Source: Anaeromyxobacter diazotrophicus (GTDB lineage: Bacteria > Myxococcota > Myxococcia > Myxococcales > Anaeromyxobacteraceae). From it: a stretch of 64,000 nucleotides of DNA. Numbering within the stretch: position 1 is the stretch's first letter; each line of letters starts with the position of its first letter. The stretch lies in assembly GCF_013340205.1 (NCBI RefSeq), contig NZ_BJTG01000003.1:434001-498000 (forward strand), read 5' to 3'. Shown one piece after another: positions 45,592-49,509 of this stretch. The translations under genes were made by a program, and so were the position numbers. The notes beneath the pieces are model-generated. The model did no database searches and was not told the origin of the DNA. It was given only the letters and a program-made list of their open reading frames with translations.

Positions 45592-45645
45592 CGGCACTGT
45601 CGGTGTGACAGGGGACGGGGAAGCCCCTTGTCAGGGCCGGTGCCG
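45592..45645. other. Nested inverted repeat between LD-carboxypeptidase and LPP20 genes
   Basis: An outer arm CGGCAC (45592) pairs with GTGCCG (to 45645), and an inner arm TGACAGGGG pairs with CCCCTTGTCA with one bulge, giving a ~54-base structured region. It may terminate the upstream gene or fold in the lipoprotein mRNA leader. Confidence 0.5.
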
Positions 45646-45665
45646 TCTGCCACCATCCACGCTCT

Positions 45666-45710: not shown

Positions 45711-46313
45711 ATGTCCCGTCGCGCCCTTCCGTTCGCGGGCTCCGCCGCCGCGCTGCTGCTGGCCGCCTGCTCCGGCCAGCCGGTGCGGCCCACCATCGCC
45801 GCCCCGGAGTGCCCGGGGCCGGCCTGGACCTGCTTCCAGTCGGGGCCGTGCCCCTTCGCCGAGTGGAAGGACAGCCTGTGCGCGGTCGGGACCGCCGACT
45901 CGATCTCGTCCCAGAGCCTGGGCATCGAGGCGGCCAAGACCCGCGCCCGCCGCGAGATGGGGGCAGTGCTGAAGTCGCAGGTCGACGGGTTCACCCGCAT
46001 CACGCAGGACAGCCTCTCGAAGGCCGGGGCGGGCGAGGACTCGACGCAGAAGGTGGGCGACCTGGCGCAGAACGTCGTCGAGCAGACGCTCCACGGCGTG
46101 TCCGTCCCGCGCACCTGGTACAGCCCCGACAGCAAGGTCTACTACGCCATCGCGGTCGTCGACGCGTCCACCTTCGCCAGCGCGCTCAAGGGCATGCGCG
46201 ACGCGAAGGGGCTCTCCGACGCGATGAAGGAGGAGATCGACCGCCGGGCCGACGGCATCGCCAAGGACTGGGCGGCCGAGCGCGACCGGAAGAACGGCGT
46301 CGCCCACCCGTAG
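45711..46313 (+). CDS. LPP20-family lipoprotein
   Basis: 200 residues. The signal peptide ends in the lipobox LLLAAC, so the mature protein is a lipid-anchored periplasmic protein. The body has the LPP20 pattern: LCAVGTADSISSQSLGIEAAKTRARREM, then TWYSPDSKVYYAIAVVDASTF. Two extra cysteines near the N-terminus (CPGPAWTCFQSGPC) could form a disulfide. It opens a four-gene lipoprotein operon with LpoB and COG3014. GGAGG lies 5 bases upstream of the ATG. Confidence 0.8.
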   Translation: MSRRALPFAGSAAALLLAACSGQPVRPTIAAPECPGPAWTCFQSGPCPFAEWKDSLCAVGTADSISSQSLGIEAAKTRARREMGAVLKSQVDGFTRITQDSLSKAGAGEDSTQKVGDLAQNVVEQTLHGVSVPRTWYSPDSKVYYAIAVVDASTFASALKGMRDAKGLSDAMKEEIDRRADGIAKDWAAERDRKNGVAHP

Positions 46314-46342
46314 CCCGCCCAGCGCCCCACCGCGGAGACCTC

Positions 46343-46939
46343 ATGCTCGCACGCCCCCTCAAGCTCGCCGCCACCCTTTTCCTCTGCGCCGGCTGCGCCA
46401 CCACCCAGGTGCGCCGCATGGACGTGAACGAGGTGAAGGACCTGAGCGGCCGGTGGAACGACACCGACTCCCGGCTGGTGGCGGAGGAGATGATCGAGGA
46501 CAGCCTCACGCGCCCGTGGCTCGCGAACGCGCAGGCGCGCAAGGGGGCCGCCCCGACCGTCATCGTCCAGACGGTCCGGAACAACAGCATGGAGCACATC
46601 AACACCGAGACCTTCGTGGAGGACCTGCAGCGCGCGCTCATCAACTCGGGCCGCGTGCAGTTCGTGGCCAGCGCGTCCGAGCGCGGCGAGCTGCGGATGG
46701 AGCGGGCCGACCAGGACCTCAACGCCTCGGACGCGACGCGCAAGGCGCACGGGCAGGAGTCGGGCGCCGACTACGCGCTCTCCGGCACGATCAACTCGGT
46801 CCGCGACCGCGACGGTGGCGAGTCGGTCGTGCTGTACCAGGTGAACCTCAAGCTGCTCGACCTGAAGTCGAACCAGATCGTCTGGAACGGACAGAAGAAG
46901 ATCAAGAAGAACGTCGCGCGCGCCTCGGCGTCGTTCTAG
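46343..46939 (+). CDS. Penicillin-binding protein activator LpoB-like lipoprotein
   Basis: 198 residues, lipobox LCAGC at residue ~18. The LpoB family (PF13036) is recognised from VRRMDVNEVKDLSGRWNDTDSRLVAEEMIEDSL, VIVQTVRNNSMEHINTETF, FVEDLQRALINSGRVQFVA and the late GADYALSGTINSV. E. coli LpoB activates PBP1b; in this context the partner is unknown. GGAG lies 6 bases upstream of the ATG, 29 bases after the LPP20 gene. Confidence 0.85.
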   Translation: MLARPLKLAATLFLCAGCATTQVRRMDVNEVKDLSGRWNDTDSRLVAEEMIEDSLTRPWLANAQARKGAAPTVIVQTVRNNSMEHINTETFVEDLQRALINSGRVQFVASASERGELRMERADQDLNASDATRKAHGQESGADYALSGTINSVRDRDGGESVVLYQVNLKLLDLKSNQIVWNGQKKIKKNVARASASF

Positions 46940-46959
46940 CCCGTCACCTGGGGGAACAC

Positions 46960-48276
46960 ATGATCGGCAAGCGCTGGAGTGGGGCCTGCCTGGCCTGGGC
47001 AGCCCTGGTGGTCGTCGCTTGCGCGGGGCCGTCCCGCGCGCACAAGCTGGAGCTGAACGCCAAGATCGCGGCCAAGGACTGGGCCGGCGCCGAGGCGCAG
47101 CTCGAGGCCGGCAAGGACAGCCAGTACGGCGACAACAACTCGGTCCTGTTCTGGCTCGACAAGGCCGCCGTGCTGCACGACGCCGGGCGCTTCCAGGAGA
47201 GCGACGCGCTGCTCGACCTGGCCGAGCAGAAGCTCGACGCGCTCTACACCCAGAGCATCAGCCGCGCCGCCGGCACCTTCTTCGTCAACGACAACACGGA
47301 CGAGTACCGGGGCGAGCCGCACGAGCGCGCGCTCCTCCACGTGCTGCGGGCCCTCAACTACGCCTACCAGGATCAGAACGAGGGGGCGGTGGTGGAGGCG
47401 CGGAAGGTGAGCGAGTTCCTCACCGAGCTGGGCGACAAGCTCGGGGCGAAGGACGTGTACCGCGGCGACGCCTTCGCCGAGTACCTCGCCGCGCTCCTGT
47501 TCGAGGACGGCGGCCGGGCCGACGACGCCCGCATCTCCATCGCGAGCGCCCGCGAGCACTACGGGTGGTACACCGAGCGCTACGGGACCCCCGAGCCGAT
47601 CCTCGACCCCGGGGTCGGCACGCCCGGCGACGGCGAGCTGGTCCTGCTCCACTACAACGGCGTCGCGCCCCGCCGCGTGTCGCAGACCATCCAGGTGGCC
47701 TGGAACGACGCCATGGCGGTGGTGAACGCCAGCGCCCAGGACGAGGACAACGCGGAGGCGAAGAACGCGCTCGTCGCGGGCGTGTCCGCCGACGCGGTGA
47801 CGGTGGCGTTCCCGGCGCAGATCCAGGACCCATTCCGCGTCCGCGCCTCGGAGATCGAGGTGGATGGGGTGAAGGCCCGGACCGTCCTCATGGAGGACAT
47901 CGCCGCCATCTCCACCAAGGCGCTGGAGGACCGCAACGCCGCCATCCGCGCCCGCGCCGTGGCGCGCGCCACGCTCAAGTTCATCGCCGCCAAGGTGGCC
48001 GAGGAGACGACGAAGCAGCAGCTCGGCCAGGGGTGGGGCATGCTGGCCGGCATGGTGGCGCGCGCCGCCTCCGCCGCCACCGAGGTGGCCGACACCCGCT
48101 GCTGGGGCACCCTGCCGGCGGAGATCCGCATGGCCCGCCTGCGGCTGCCCGCCGGCCACCACCTCGTGAACGTGAGCTACCTCGACGAGAACGGCGCCGT
48201 GGTCGGGGTCGAGACGCTCGAGGTCGACACCAAGCCCGGCAAGCGCACCTGGGCGCACGTCCGGTCGGCCATCTAG
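46960..48276 (+). CDS. COG3014-type lipoprotein with helical repeats
   Basis: 438 residues, lipobox LVVVAC at residues ~17-21. The first ~200 residues read as TPR-like helices (KDWAGAEAQLEAGKDSQYGD, ALLHVLRALNYAYQDQNEGA, DDARISIASAREHYG). A beta-rich part follows (GDGELVLLHYNGVAPRRVSQ; RLPAGHHLVNVSYLDENGAVVG). COG3014 members repeatedly accompany LpoB and LPP20 lipoproteins but have no assigned activity. It may scaffold an outer-membrane complex (inference). GGGGGA lies 4 bases before the ATG. Confidence 0.8.
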   Translation: MIGKRWSGACLAWAALVVVACAGPSRAHKLELNAKIAAKDWAGAEAQLEAGKDSQYGDNNSVLFWLDKAAVLHDAGRFQESDALLDLAEQKLDALYTQSISRAAGTFFVNDNTDEYRGEPHERALLHVLRALNYAYQDQNEGAVVEARKVSEFLTELGDKLGAKDVYRGDAFAEYLAALLFEDGGRADDARISIASAREHYGWYTERYGTPEPILDPGVGTPGDGELVLLHYNGVAPRRVSQTIQVAWNDAMAVVNASAQDEDNAEAKNALVAGVSADAVTVAFPAQIQDPFRVRASEIEVDGVKARTVLMEDIAAISTKALEDRNAAIRARAVARATLKFIAAKVAEETTKQQLGQGWGMLAGMVARAASAATEVADTRCWGTLPAEIRMARLRLPAGHHLVNVSYLDENGAVVGVETLEVDTKPGKRTWAHVRSAI

Positions 48277-48345
48277 GGCCGCGCCGCGGAGGGGCCCGGG
48301 CCGCGCGCTCGAGGCGTCCTCCGCGGCCCTTCGCGGGAGGCTTCC

Positions 48346-49359
48346 ATGCCGCACCTCGCCGTCGCAGCCGTCGCACTGTGCTTGCTGGCCGGCCCCGCTC
48401 CCGCGCGCGACGGCCGTCCGGACTGGGTCGACGGGGAGAGCCTCGAGTGGCCCCGCCACCGGTACCTGACCGGCGTCGGCTCCGCCGACGACCGCGCCAC
48501 GGCCGAGGACCGGGGCCGGGCCGAGATCGCGCGCGTCTTCACGGCGCGCGTGCTCTCCACCACCACCAGCTTCGCCTCGGAGTCGACGGCCACCGTCCGG
48601 GGCGCCTCCGCCACGGCGGCGCAGGTGGCGGTCAGCGACGACACGCGCACCAGCACGGACAAGGTGCTGGAGGGGGTCGAGATCGCCGCCACCTGGCAGG
48701 ACCCGGCCACGCGCCGGATCTTCGCGCTGGCGGTGCTGGACCGCCGCAGCGGGGCCGAGCGGCTCCGGGCGCGCCTGGCCGCGCTGGACGCCTCGGCACG
48801 GCCGGCGGAGGCGGAGCTGGCGTCGGCCTCCGACCCGGTGGCCGCGGCCATGGCGGGGCTGCGCCTGCGCGCGCTGGCGCGCCGCCGCGAGCCGCTCGCG
48901 GCCGACCTGCGCCTGCTCGACCCGGCGCCGGAGGGCGGGGCGGCCCGGTACGCCAGGCTGGACGCGGCCGCGAGCGCCGCGCTGGCGCGGCTGGTGGTGG
49001 TGGCGAGCGCCGCGGGCGAGACCGCCCCCGCGCTCGAGGAGGGCGTCACCCAGGGGCTCGCCGCGCTCGGGATGAAGGCCGCCCCGGCGGCGCCCGGGGT
49101 CGCGCCGGATCTGGTGGTCGAGGTCGCCGGCGCGCTGGAGGACCTGGGCCACCGCGACGGGTGGGCCTGGTGGACGGCGCACGCGTCGCTCGCGATGCGC
49201 GAGGCGAAGAGCGGGCGGGTGCTGGTGCGCTTCGAGGAGAGCGCCCGCGAGGCGGCCACCCTCGACGCGGACGCCCGCCGCCGCGCCGCCCAGAGCGCGG
49301 GCGCCCGCGTCGCGGAGCGGCTCCCGGCCGCGCTGCTGGCGTGGGCGGACGCGCCCTGA
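48346..49359 (+). CDS. LPP20-like periplasmic protein with C-terminal lipoprotein-like domain
   Basis: 337 residues with a signal peptide (AVAAVALCLLAGPAPA) but no lipobox cysteine, so it is exported and soluble. Residues ~25-150 form an LPP20/FlgT-N-type domain (DWVDGESLEWPRHRYLTGVG, RAEIARVFTARVLS, FALAVLDRRSGAERLR). The C-terminal part has a second alpha/beta domain (PDLVVEVAGALEDLG, AHASLAMREAKSGRVLVRFEE). It ends the operon; GGAGG lies ~4 bases upstream of the ATG. Confidence 0.7.
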   Translation: MPHLAVAAVALCLLAGPAPARDGRPDWVDGESLEWPRHRYLTGVGSADDRATAEDRGRAEIARVFTARVLSTTTSFASESTATVRGASATAAQVAVSDDTRTSTDKVLEGVEIAATWQDPATRRIFALAVLDRRSGAERLRARLAALDASARPAEAELASASDPVAAAMAGLRLRALARRREPLAADLRLLDPAPEGGAARYARLDAAASAALARLVVVASAAGETAPALEEGVTQGLAALGMKAAPAAPGVAPDLVVEVAGALEDLGHRDGWAWWTAHASLAMREAKSGRVLVRFEESAREAATLDADARRRAAQSAGARVAERLPAALLAWADAP

Positions 49360-49400
49360 TGGCGCAGCCCAGTTGAAGTTGCGCTTGCGATGGGGGGTGT

Positions 49401-49428
49401 TTGCGGGGGGAGAGTTCTCCCCCCGCAA
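49401..49428. terminator. Terminator hairpin between convergent genes
   Basis: Perfect 13-bp stem TTGCGGGGGGAGA / TCTCCCCCCGCAA with a GT loop, 42 bases after the LPP20-like gene. It is symmetric and could serve either strand; no U-tract. Confidence 0.6.
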
Positions 49429-49432
49429 GTGA

Positions 49433-49509
49433 GGCGCCGAAAGGCGCCGGACCTGATCTCACGGCGGGGCGGCGCCGCCGCGATCAACTCAACCGAGCGC
49501 CGCCGTGAG
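49433..49509. other. Two further hairpins in the convergent gap
   Basis: GGCGCC-gaaa-GGCGCC (49433-49448) has a stable GNRA-type tetraloop, followed by a long-range pair CTCACGGCGG / CCGCCGTGAG (49458-49509). Together with 49401-49428 three helices stack in 110 bases, just before the barrel gene's stop. Confidence 0.5.

Follow-up and report, generated by a model that had tools for sequence, protein, structure and literature searches.

LpoB is the textbook outer-membrane trigger of peptidoglycan synthesis, and to our knowledge it has been studied almost exclusively in Escherichia coli and close relatives. The E. coli lipoprotein is reported to dock on the UB2H domain of PBP1B, a penicillin-binding protein (PBP) (PMC9593243, PMC7267771), and to carry a long disordered tether of ~54 residues (PMC9593243). 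For Campylobacterota, HP1457 of Helicobacter pylori has been described as an LpoB homologue with Cj0091 of Campylobacter jejuni as its orthologue, and cj0089-cj0090-cj0091 as one operon (PMC3100323, PMC11394524). Cj0089 and H. pylori HP0018 are presented as tetratricopeptide repeat (TPR) lipoproteins in the same reports (PMC3100323, PMC11394524), and the HP0018 gene is reported to precede the HP1457 gene in several Helicobacter (PMC11394524). Here we analyse a four-gene operon of Anaeromyxobacter diazotrophicus that brings an LpoB-family protein together with a TPR lipoprotein and two LPP20-type proteins. It lies in a stretch of 64,000 nucleotides, hereafter the window, which corresponds to positions 434001-498000 of contig C3 in a genome of 4.83 Mb and 17 contigs (G000).

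Our analyses showed four signal-peptide genes in conserved order and a nearly obligate pairing of LpoB with the TPR lipoprotein, a pairing also seen where lpoB lies in Aeromonas. We call the TPR lipoprotein COG3014, an unconfirmed label from an earlier note on the window; the protein had no match in Pfam or NCBIfam. With slightly less than even confidence, we propose that the operon encodes a complex that is anchored in the outer membrane, faces the periplasm and acts on peptidoglycan metabolism or its enzymes. The four genes, hereafter the module, are:

45711..46313, + strand: gene 1, LPP20-family lipoprotein, 200 amino acids (PF02169 29.3 bits, residues 54-151; lipobox LAAC)
46343..46939, + strand: gene 2, LpoB-family lipoprotein with a short tether, 198 amino acids (PF13036 149.5 bits; lipobox CAGC)
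46960..48276, + strand: gene 3, TPR lipoprotein (COG3014), 438 amino acids (TPR fold matches; lipobox VVAC)
48346..49359, + strand: gene 4, two-domain LPP20-like exported protein, 337 amino acids (PF02169 51.1 bits; fold matches)

The earlier note had listed these four families from the sequence; the genes are real, and their order and placement were given correctly. All four parts belong to families already known or named, and the loci of E. coli and Campylobacter have been published. In the literature searched, which left subscription journals mostly outside, neither the four-gene unit nor a partnership of COG3014 with LpoB was found described.

Linkage of LpoB and COG3014 across phyla

We compared two genome sets, namely 117 Myxococcota genomes of the window's order and 274 genomes of the Gammaproteobacteria, the class of the Ectothiorhodospiraceae genome G117, to which locus L108 had led. 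LpoB was counted at E ≤7.3e-29 in Myxococcota (best match per genome) and at E ≤2.1e-14 in Gammaproteobacteria; weaker, CsgG-like LpoB matches were left out of the linkage counts. In the Myxococcota order, COG3014 occurred in 74/117 genomes and strong LpoB in at least 74/117, with both present in at least 73. Among the matches listed, the two genes were same-strand neighbours in at least 72 genomes, LpoB coming first in at least 71. The gammaproteobacterial set held COG3014 in 52/274 and strong LpoB in 54/274 genomes; 50 had both, and in 47 of these the genes were adjacent, either as LpoB-COG3014 (28 genomes) or as COG3014 followed by LpoB after a gap of mostly 540-750 bp (19 genomes). Chance adjacency could be rejected in both sets (Fisher P 1.9e-47 in Gammaproteobacteria and 1.6e-29 in Myxococcota, with relatedness ignored).

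A survey of 81 loci extended the comparison to other phyla. It comprised the window and the best 80 of 213 candidates found with one peptide pattern, a sample that favours relatives of the query and repeats some genomes. LpoB stood immediately upstream of COG3014 in 77/81 loci. The full order LPP20-LpoB-COG3014-LPP20-like was found in 20, spanning Myxococcota, Elusimicrobiota, Desulfobacterota/'Deltaproteobacteria', Nitrospirota and one proteobacterial genome. Another 33 loci, including 17/18 from Omnitrophota, have the LpoB-COG3014 pair with no LPP20 gene detected on either side, which in this survey may mean a protein too divergent for the profiles. Among the Gammaproteobacteria, 14/274 genomes keep the full order and 19/274 keep LpoB-COG3014-LPP20-like, those 14 included; the LPP20-like profile matched in 29 of these genomes, 26 of which also carry COG3014. 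The four genes are hence a real conserved unit. From the full-order, partial and pair-only counts, LpoB-COG3014 is its core, and the LPP20 proteins are frequent, optional parts.

The families grouped in the earlier note thus do not occur independently of each other where LpoB and COG3014 are concerned, and largely not in the case of the LPP20-like protein. In its proposal of an outer-membrane-tethered assembly, the tethering is supported by lipoboxes in 38/39 LPP20, 75/79 COG3014 and 19/30 LPP20-like proteins; a fixed four-part set has to be replaced by a core pair with optional parts. As a side observation, one gammaproteobacterial genome (G212) has both layouts, LPP20-LpoB-COG3014-LPP20-like and COG3014-LpoB-LPP20-like (contigs C6 and C8). 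Four of the 81 loci were without LpoB. One of them (L100) lies at a contig edge; the other three (L045, L054 and L078, labelled Elusimicrobia) have COG3014 without detectable LpoB, and in L045 and L054 another lipoprotein-like open reading frame (ORF) stands upstream.

In a chromosome-sized record of Aeromonas caviae, the gene order is hinT-COG3014-ycfL(DUF1425)-lpoB-thiK, where hinT and thiK were named from HIT and APH family matches and from the E. coli locus. With the profiles made here, the Aeromonas proteins scored 182 bits (COG3014) and 154 bits (LpoB); this record was the only match that the plasmid collection yielded. E. coli K-12 has hinT-ycfL-lpoB-thiK-nagZ, and the gap between hinT and ycfL is 2 bp, so there is no COG3014 at this locus. 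From gene content, COG3014 looks like the ancestral partner of LpoB that was lost in E. coli. When the two loci are compared, a loss in the line leading to E. coli is the more economical explanation, because COG3014 accompanies LpoB in many phyla. Since the same gene order is kept in very distant bacteria, our data suggest that LpoB originated as a component of a larger complex in the envelope.

Distances in the trees of LpoB, COG3014 and the LPP20-like protein are correlated with one another (r 0.78, 0.69 and 0.84). For this comparison, 22 listed loci were dropped as duplicate, truncated or fused; alignments A1 and A2 include members cut by contig ends (L007 and L010 in A2). In all three trees the window operon is closest to a few same-family genomes and to Elusimicrobiota, and in the LpoB and COG3014 trees it stands far from the type of Myxococcus and other same-family genomes. 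The window COG3014 is mostly 42-49% identical to Elusimicrobiota proteins (L042, L044, L046 and others) and ~30% identical to the Myxococcus type. The other sampled genome of the same genus, G056, has the distant type only, at 29% identity. With correlated trees, nearest relatives in Elusimicrobiota and this distant type within the genus, the whole operon seems to travel as a block, and its presence in the window looks like whole-operon transfer.

In the window, the gaps between genes 1 to 4 measure 29, 20 and 69 bp. The upstream neighbour is a gene for an S66 LD-carboxypeptidase (S66 peptidase), 208 bp before gene 1. We rejected this peptidase as an operon partner; by eye, the upstream sequence differs in the relatives L004 and L005, and the gene seems local to the window genome. 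Two further features flank the operon:

45628..45656, + strand: weak candidate promoter TTGTCA-17-CACCAT, found by eye
49401..49428, + strand: 13-bp perfect inverted repeat, a possible end-of-operon hairpin with no T-run (repeat scan and folding)

L005 and L004 show a similar promoter layout ahead of the operon. A sigma-70 consensus scan upstream of gene 1 called no promoter, TTGTCA-17-CACCAT included. For the upstream control region claimed in the earlier note there are thus the 208-bp gap and the candidate found by eye, and against it the result of the scan. The inverted repeat starts 41 bp past gene 4, and the fold of 49360-49450 has a z of -4.32.

The LpoB homologue and its possible PBP partners

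In a Pfam scan, gene 2 scored 149.5 bits with the LpoB family PF13036 (cut-off 22.3), compared with 128 bits for E. coli LpoB. It misses the stricter NCBIfam equivalog TIGR02722 (104.2 versus a cut-off of 110.55), and its pairwise similarity to E. coli LpoB is weak (BLASTP E 0.40; phmmer E 0.044). The CAGC lipobox follows a hydrophobic stretch, which predicts an outer-membrane lipoprotein. Its tether is short. The Pfam domain begins at residue 42, 24 residues past Cys18, whereas in E. coli LpoB it begins ~50 residues past the Cys; the gene 2 protein thus reaches about half of the E. coli length and has no long tether of the E. coli type. In 150 module LpoBs, with some genomes counted in two sets, 54-66 residues separate the Cys from the strand-1 motif, versus 90 in E. 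coli. Tether length was rejected as a general indicator that COG3014 has been lost, since only E. coli showed a clear shift. Two of the four other LpoB-only genomes were usable and had tethers of 63 (L159) and 66 residues (L160); L161 was left out, and the value of 55 for L162 apparently came from a wrongly picked Cys.

The window genome has four transglycosylase genes, two of them for class A PBPs (L123 and L124) and two read as monofunctional. As read from sequence, the glycosyltransferase domain in L123 and L124 lies close behind the membrane anchor. We detected no UB2H-bearing PBP in this genome, where a very divergent UB2H could escape detection; the sole UB2H match was below cut-off and lay within an ORF of 1318 amino acids. 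In most of the 117 Myxococcota genomes, the Pfam UB2H model matches ORFs of ~700 and ~1200 amino acids, which we take to be UvrB- and Mfd-like sizes. The Myxococcota UB2H counts were discarded, because most matches fell in such ORFs, and UB2H was counted in Gammaproteobacteria only (E ≤1e-9, among the matches listed). There, it was weakly associated with the module, being present in 36/50 genomes with the LpoB-COG3014 pair and in 123/224 without (odds ratio 2.1, P 0.028, relatedness not corrected), and in 4/4 genomes with LpoB but no COG3014. The module does not need UB2H; LpoB alone was seen solely together with UB2H, in very small numbers.

The window LpoB might simply activate a class A PBP as in E. 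coli, with its neighbours as bystanders. Its PF13036 score is consistent with such a role, and L123 and L124 would be possible targets, but no UB2H was detected in the PBPs of this genome, the tether is short, and the neighbours are conserved. We therefore regard a canonical LpoB as improbable. With no detectable UB2H-bearing PBP and a tether of about half the length, the mechanism described for E. coli does not apply in unaltered form to the window genome. That LpoB-type activators work with a PBP, as the earlier note had stated, is true for E. coli and cannot be extended in this form to the window genome; its remark that there is no PBP here holds for the stretch examined.

Folds of the TPR and LPP20 proteins

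The gene 3 model (predicted local distance difference test, pLDDT, 83.7; predicted template modelling score, pTM, 0.85) comprises an N-terminal TPR domain (~24-220) and a C-terminal beta-rich domain (~224-436). The TPR domain matches BamD (Z 13.2) and the TPR domain of LpoP (Z 13.1, root-mean-square deviation, rmsd, 2.1, with 104 residues aligned). Profile searches against PDB sequences with the COG3014 and LPP20-like alignments returned nothing credible. Some COG3014 ORFs are enlarged. In one Myxococcota genus (f3 g15; L011 1471-3330, L013 1465-3294 and L012 544-2202) they measure 553-620 amino acids, with extra sequence between the two matched parts. Immediately downstream of COG3014, Myxococcus and relatives have a gene for a ZIP zinc transporter (6 loci; e.g., L102 7210-7995).

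Genes 1 and 4 both score above the PF02169 LPP20 cut-off of 25.9 bits. In gene 4 the match covers residues 25-132; its signal peptide is without a lipobox Cys. In the gene 4 model (pLDDT 84.5), a helical linker connects an SHS2/LPP20 domain to a domain with the CsgG/PelC/LptE/TolB-N fold (~215-337). This C-terminal domain matches CsgG (Z 11.3, rmsd 3.3, 120 aligned), PelC (Z 10.1, rmsd 3.0, 111 aligned), LptE (Z 9.2) and TolB (Z 8.6). Over the whole length, the best fold match among the matches listed is H. pylori HP1454 (Z 9.9, 225 aligned, rmsd 6.2); FlgT aligns over 167 residues with Z 8.6 at rmsd 15.1. A beta-hairpin with strands 72-84 and 87-99 is modelled between the SHS2 helix and the second strand, at a pLDDT of just 41-67. 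The length of this stretch is kept, with a median of 67 residues between anchors (range 61-99; 30/39 LPP20-like proteins measured). Ring formation in the SHS2/LPP20 family is reported to correlate with a beta-hairpin insert (PMC12222027).

The module might hence encode an outer-membrane ring or channel-like scaffold, in parts akin to the Vibrio H-ring or to CsgG/PelC, that serves or stabilises a non-flagellar envelope machine. The SHS2 domains of the LPP20-like proteins would oligomerise via the hairpin, the CsgG-like domains would form an inner ring, LpoB would be FlgO-like, and COG3014 an adaptor. The fold matches of gene 4 to CsgG, PelC, LptE, TolB, HP1454 and FlgT and the modelled hairpin, in a stretch of conserved length, point in this direction, as does a weak FlgO match of the window LpoB (18.8 bits, under the cut-off of 22.6). 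On the other hand, the hairpin is modelled with low pLDDT, FlgT superposes poorly, and CsgG-like folds are shared by LptE and TolB-N, neither of which is known to form rings. Moreover, the LpoB-COG3014 pair is frequent where no LPP20 parts were detected, and no conserved cargo or machine gene adjoins the module among the loci examined. A ring is thus possible, though we would rate it as rather unlikely. The peptidoglycan-regulator and the ring or scaffold readings are not exclusive of each other.

Two observations on the LPP20 proteins may be added. A gene for a trypsin-like (HtrA-type) protease (L061 8626-9783) separates the LPP20-like gene from another LPP20 gene, and L063, L064 and L065 share this arrangement. 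In a viral structure library, the Caudovirales lipoprotein A0A6J5LK82 resembles gene 4 (E 6e-5); a CsgG and an LPP20 lipoprotein of phages match it more weakly.

A putative envelope complex and its described relatives

Cj0089 and HP0018 are probably relatives of COG3014. Loss of HP0018 is reported to cause hypervesiculation and less helical cells, and HP0018 to co-precipitate AmiA and MltD (PMC11394524). The view of the earlier note that COG3014 has no known role is thus nearly true, except that these probable relatives have been studied, HP0018 with a phenotype. On the LPP20 side of the module, HP1456 (Lpp20) and HP1454 of H. pylori are described to share an operon and to bind FlgP and FapH (PMC11756786).

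Such contacts could also indicate a flagellar accessory, that is, an H-ring or sheath-base component. LPP20/SHS2 proteins are reported as relatives of FlgP and FlgT (PMC12222027), and the window genome has FlgH. Yet FlgH was present in 21/117 genomes of the Myxococcota order, compared with at least 73 for the LpoB-COG3014 pair. Two genomes that are 98-99% complete (G012 and G050) carry LpoB-COG3014-LPP20-like and no FlgH, and an Elusimicrobiota genome of unstated completeness (G121) has all four genes and likewise no FlgH. As a general role, a flagellar accessory was rejected on the grounds that the module occurs in genomes without FlgH, and for the operon as such we consider it highly improbable.

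In the peptidoglycan-directed complex that we tentatively prefer, LPP20, LpoB and COG3014 would be lipidated and face the periplasm. The four proteins would assemble under the outer membrane, with COG3014 as a scaffold and LpoB as an effector or clamp. The TPR domain of COG3014 might dock LpoB together with a peptidoglycan enzyme, which could be a PBP1A-type class A PBP, an amidase or a lytic transglycosylase, and LPP20 and the LPP20-like protein might supply an oligomerising layer. As a result, the complex would set where peptidoglycan synthesis or cleavage occurs beneath the outer membrane. E. coli LpoB-PBP1B would be its stripped-down descendant, in which COG3014 was lost and a longer tether gained. 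In favour of this proposal are the PF13036 score of gene 2, the linkage and gene-order counts, the comparison of the Aeromonas and E. coli loci, the correlated tree distances, the phenotype and co-precipitated partners of HP0018, and the superposition of the TPR domains of COG3014 and LpoP.

Several points weigh against this proposal. No peptidoglycan gene is conserved as a cross-phylum neighbour of the module, the adjoining S66 peptidase gene seems local to the window genome, no UB2H-bearing PBP was detected in the window genome, and the association of UB2H with the module is weak. The similarity of gene 3 to LpoP is of a generic kind, with unrelated TPR proteins scoring equally against its TPR domain. 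We infer the homology of HP0018 and COG3014, and the HP0018 partners are reported from co-immunoprecipitation and AlphaFold models (PMC11394524). Furthermore, hp1456 deletion is reported to change neither flagella nor bacitracin resistance (PMC11756786), and the phenotype reported for Cj0091 concerns adherence and colonisation (PMC3100323).

We may further speculate that LpoB is by origin a subunit of a widespread non-flagellar outer-membrane ring composed of LPP20, LpoB, COG3014 and the LPP20-CsgG-like protein, which couples the outer membrane to both synthesis and cleavage of peptidoglycan. E. coli LpoB-PBP1B would then be a reduced relic, and the H-ring and FlgP disk would share its building blocks. 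We consider this broader view unlikely. In the sampled Gammaproteobacteria and Myxococcota, LpoB is nearly always found with a TPR lipoprotein that is missing at the E. coli locus, and often with two SHS2/CsgG-like proteins. For bacteria that lack a UB2H-bearing PBP1B, these proteins become candidate partners of the orphan LpoB homologues. HP0018, Lpp20 and HP1454 of H. pylori may be grouped into a single system, and it becomes testable whether a general envelope module and the proteins of flagellar disks have a common origin.

Compared with described systems, the Campylobacterota operon resembles the module in joining a TPR lipoprotein and an LpoB homologue, with HP1456 being Lpp20. It differs in the presence of Cj0090, which presumably has an Ig-like fold, and in having no LPP20 genes there; in H. 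pylori the parts stand at separate loci. The Vibrio H-ring (FlgO, FlgP and FlgT) likewise has SHS2/LPP20 and LpoB/CsgG-type folds in outer-membrane proteins, but the module is carried by non-flagellar genomes, and we know of no COG3014 counterpart in this ring. LpoP, the PBP1B activator of Pseudomonas aeruginosa, is a TPR lipoprotein like COG3014, and their TPR domains superpose; in contrast to COG3014, it has no beta-rich C-terminal domain and is described with tandem TPRs and a long disordered tether (PMC7267771). Finally, the E. coli lpoB locus shares with the module the LpoB family itself and, via Aeromonas, the locus ancestry, whereas it has no COG3014 or LPP20 genes, a longer tether and, as its partner, a PBP1B with UB2H.

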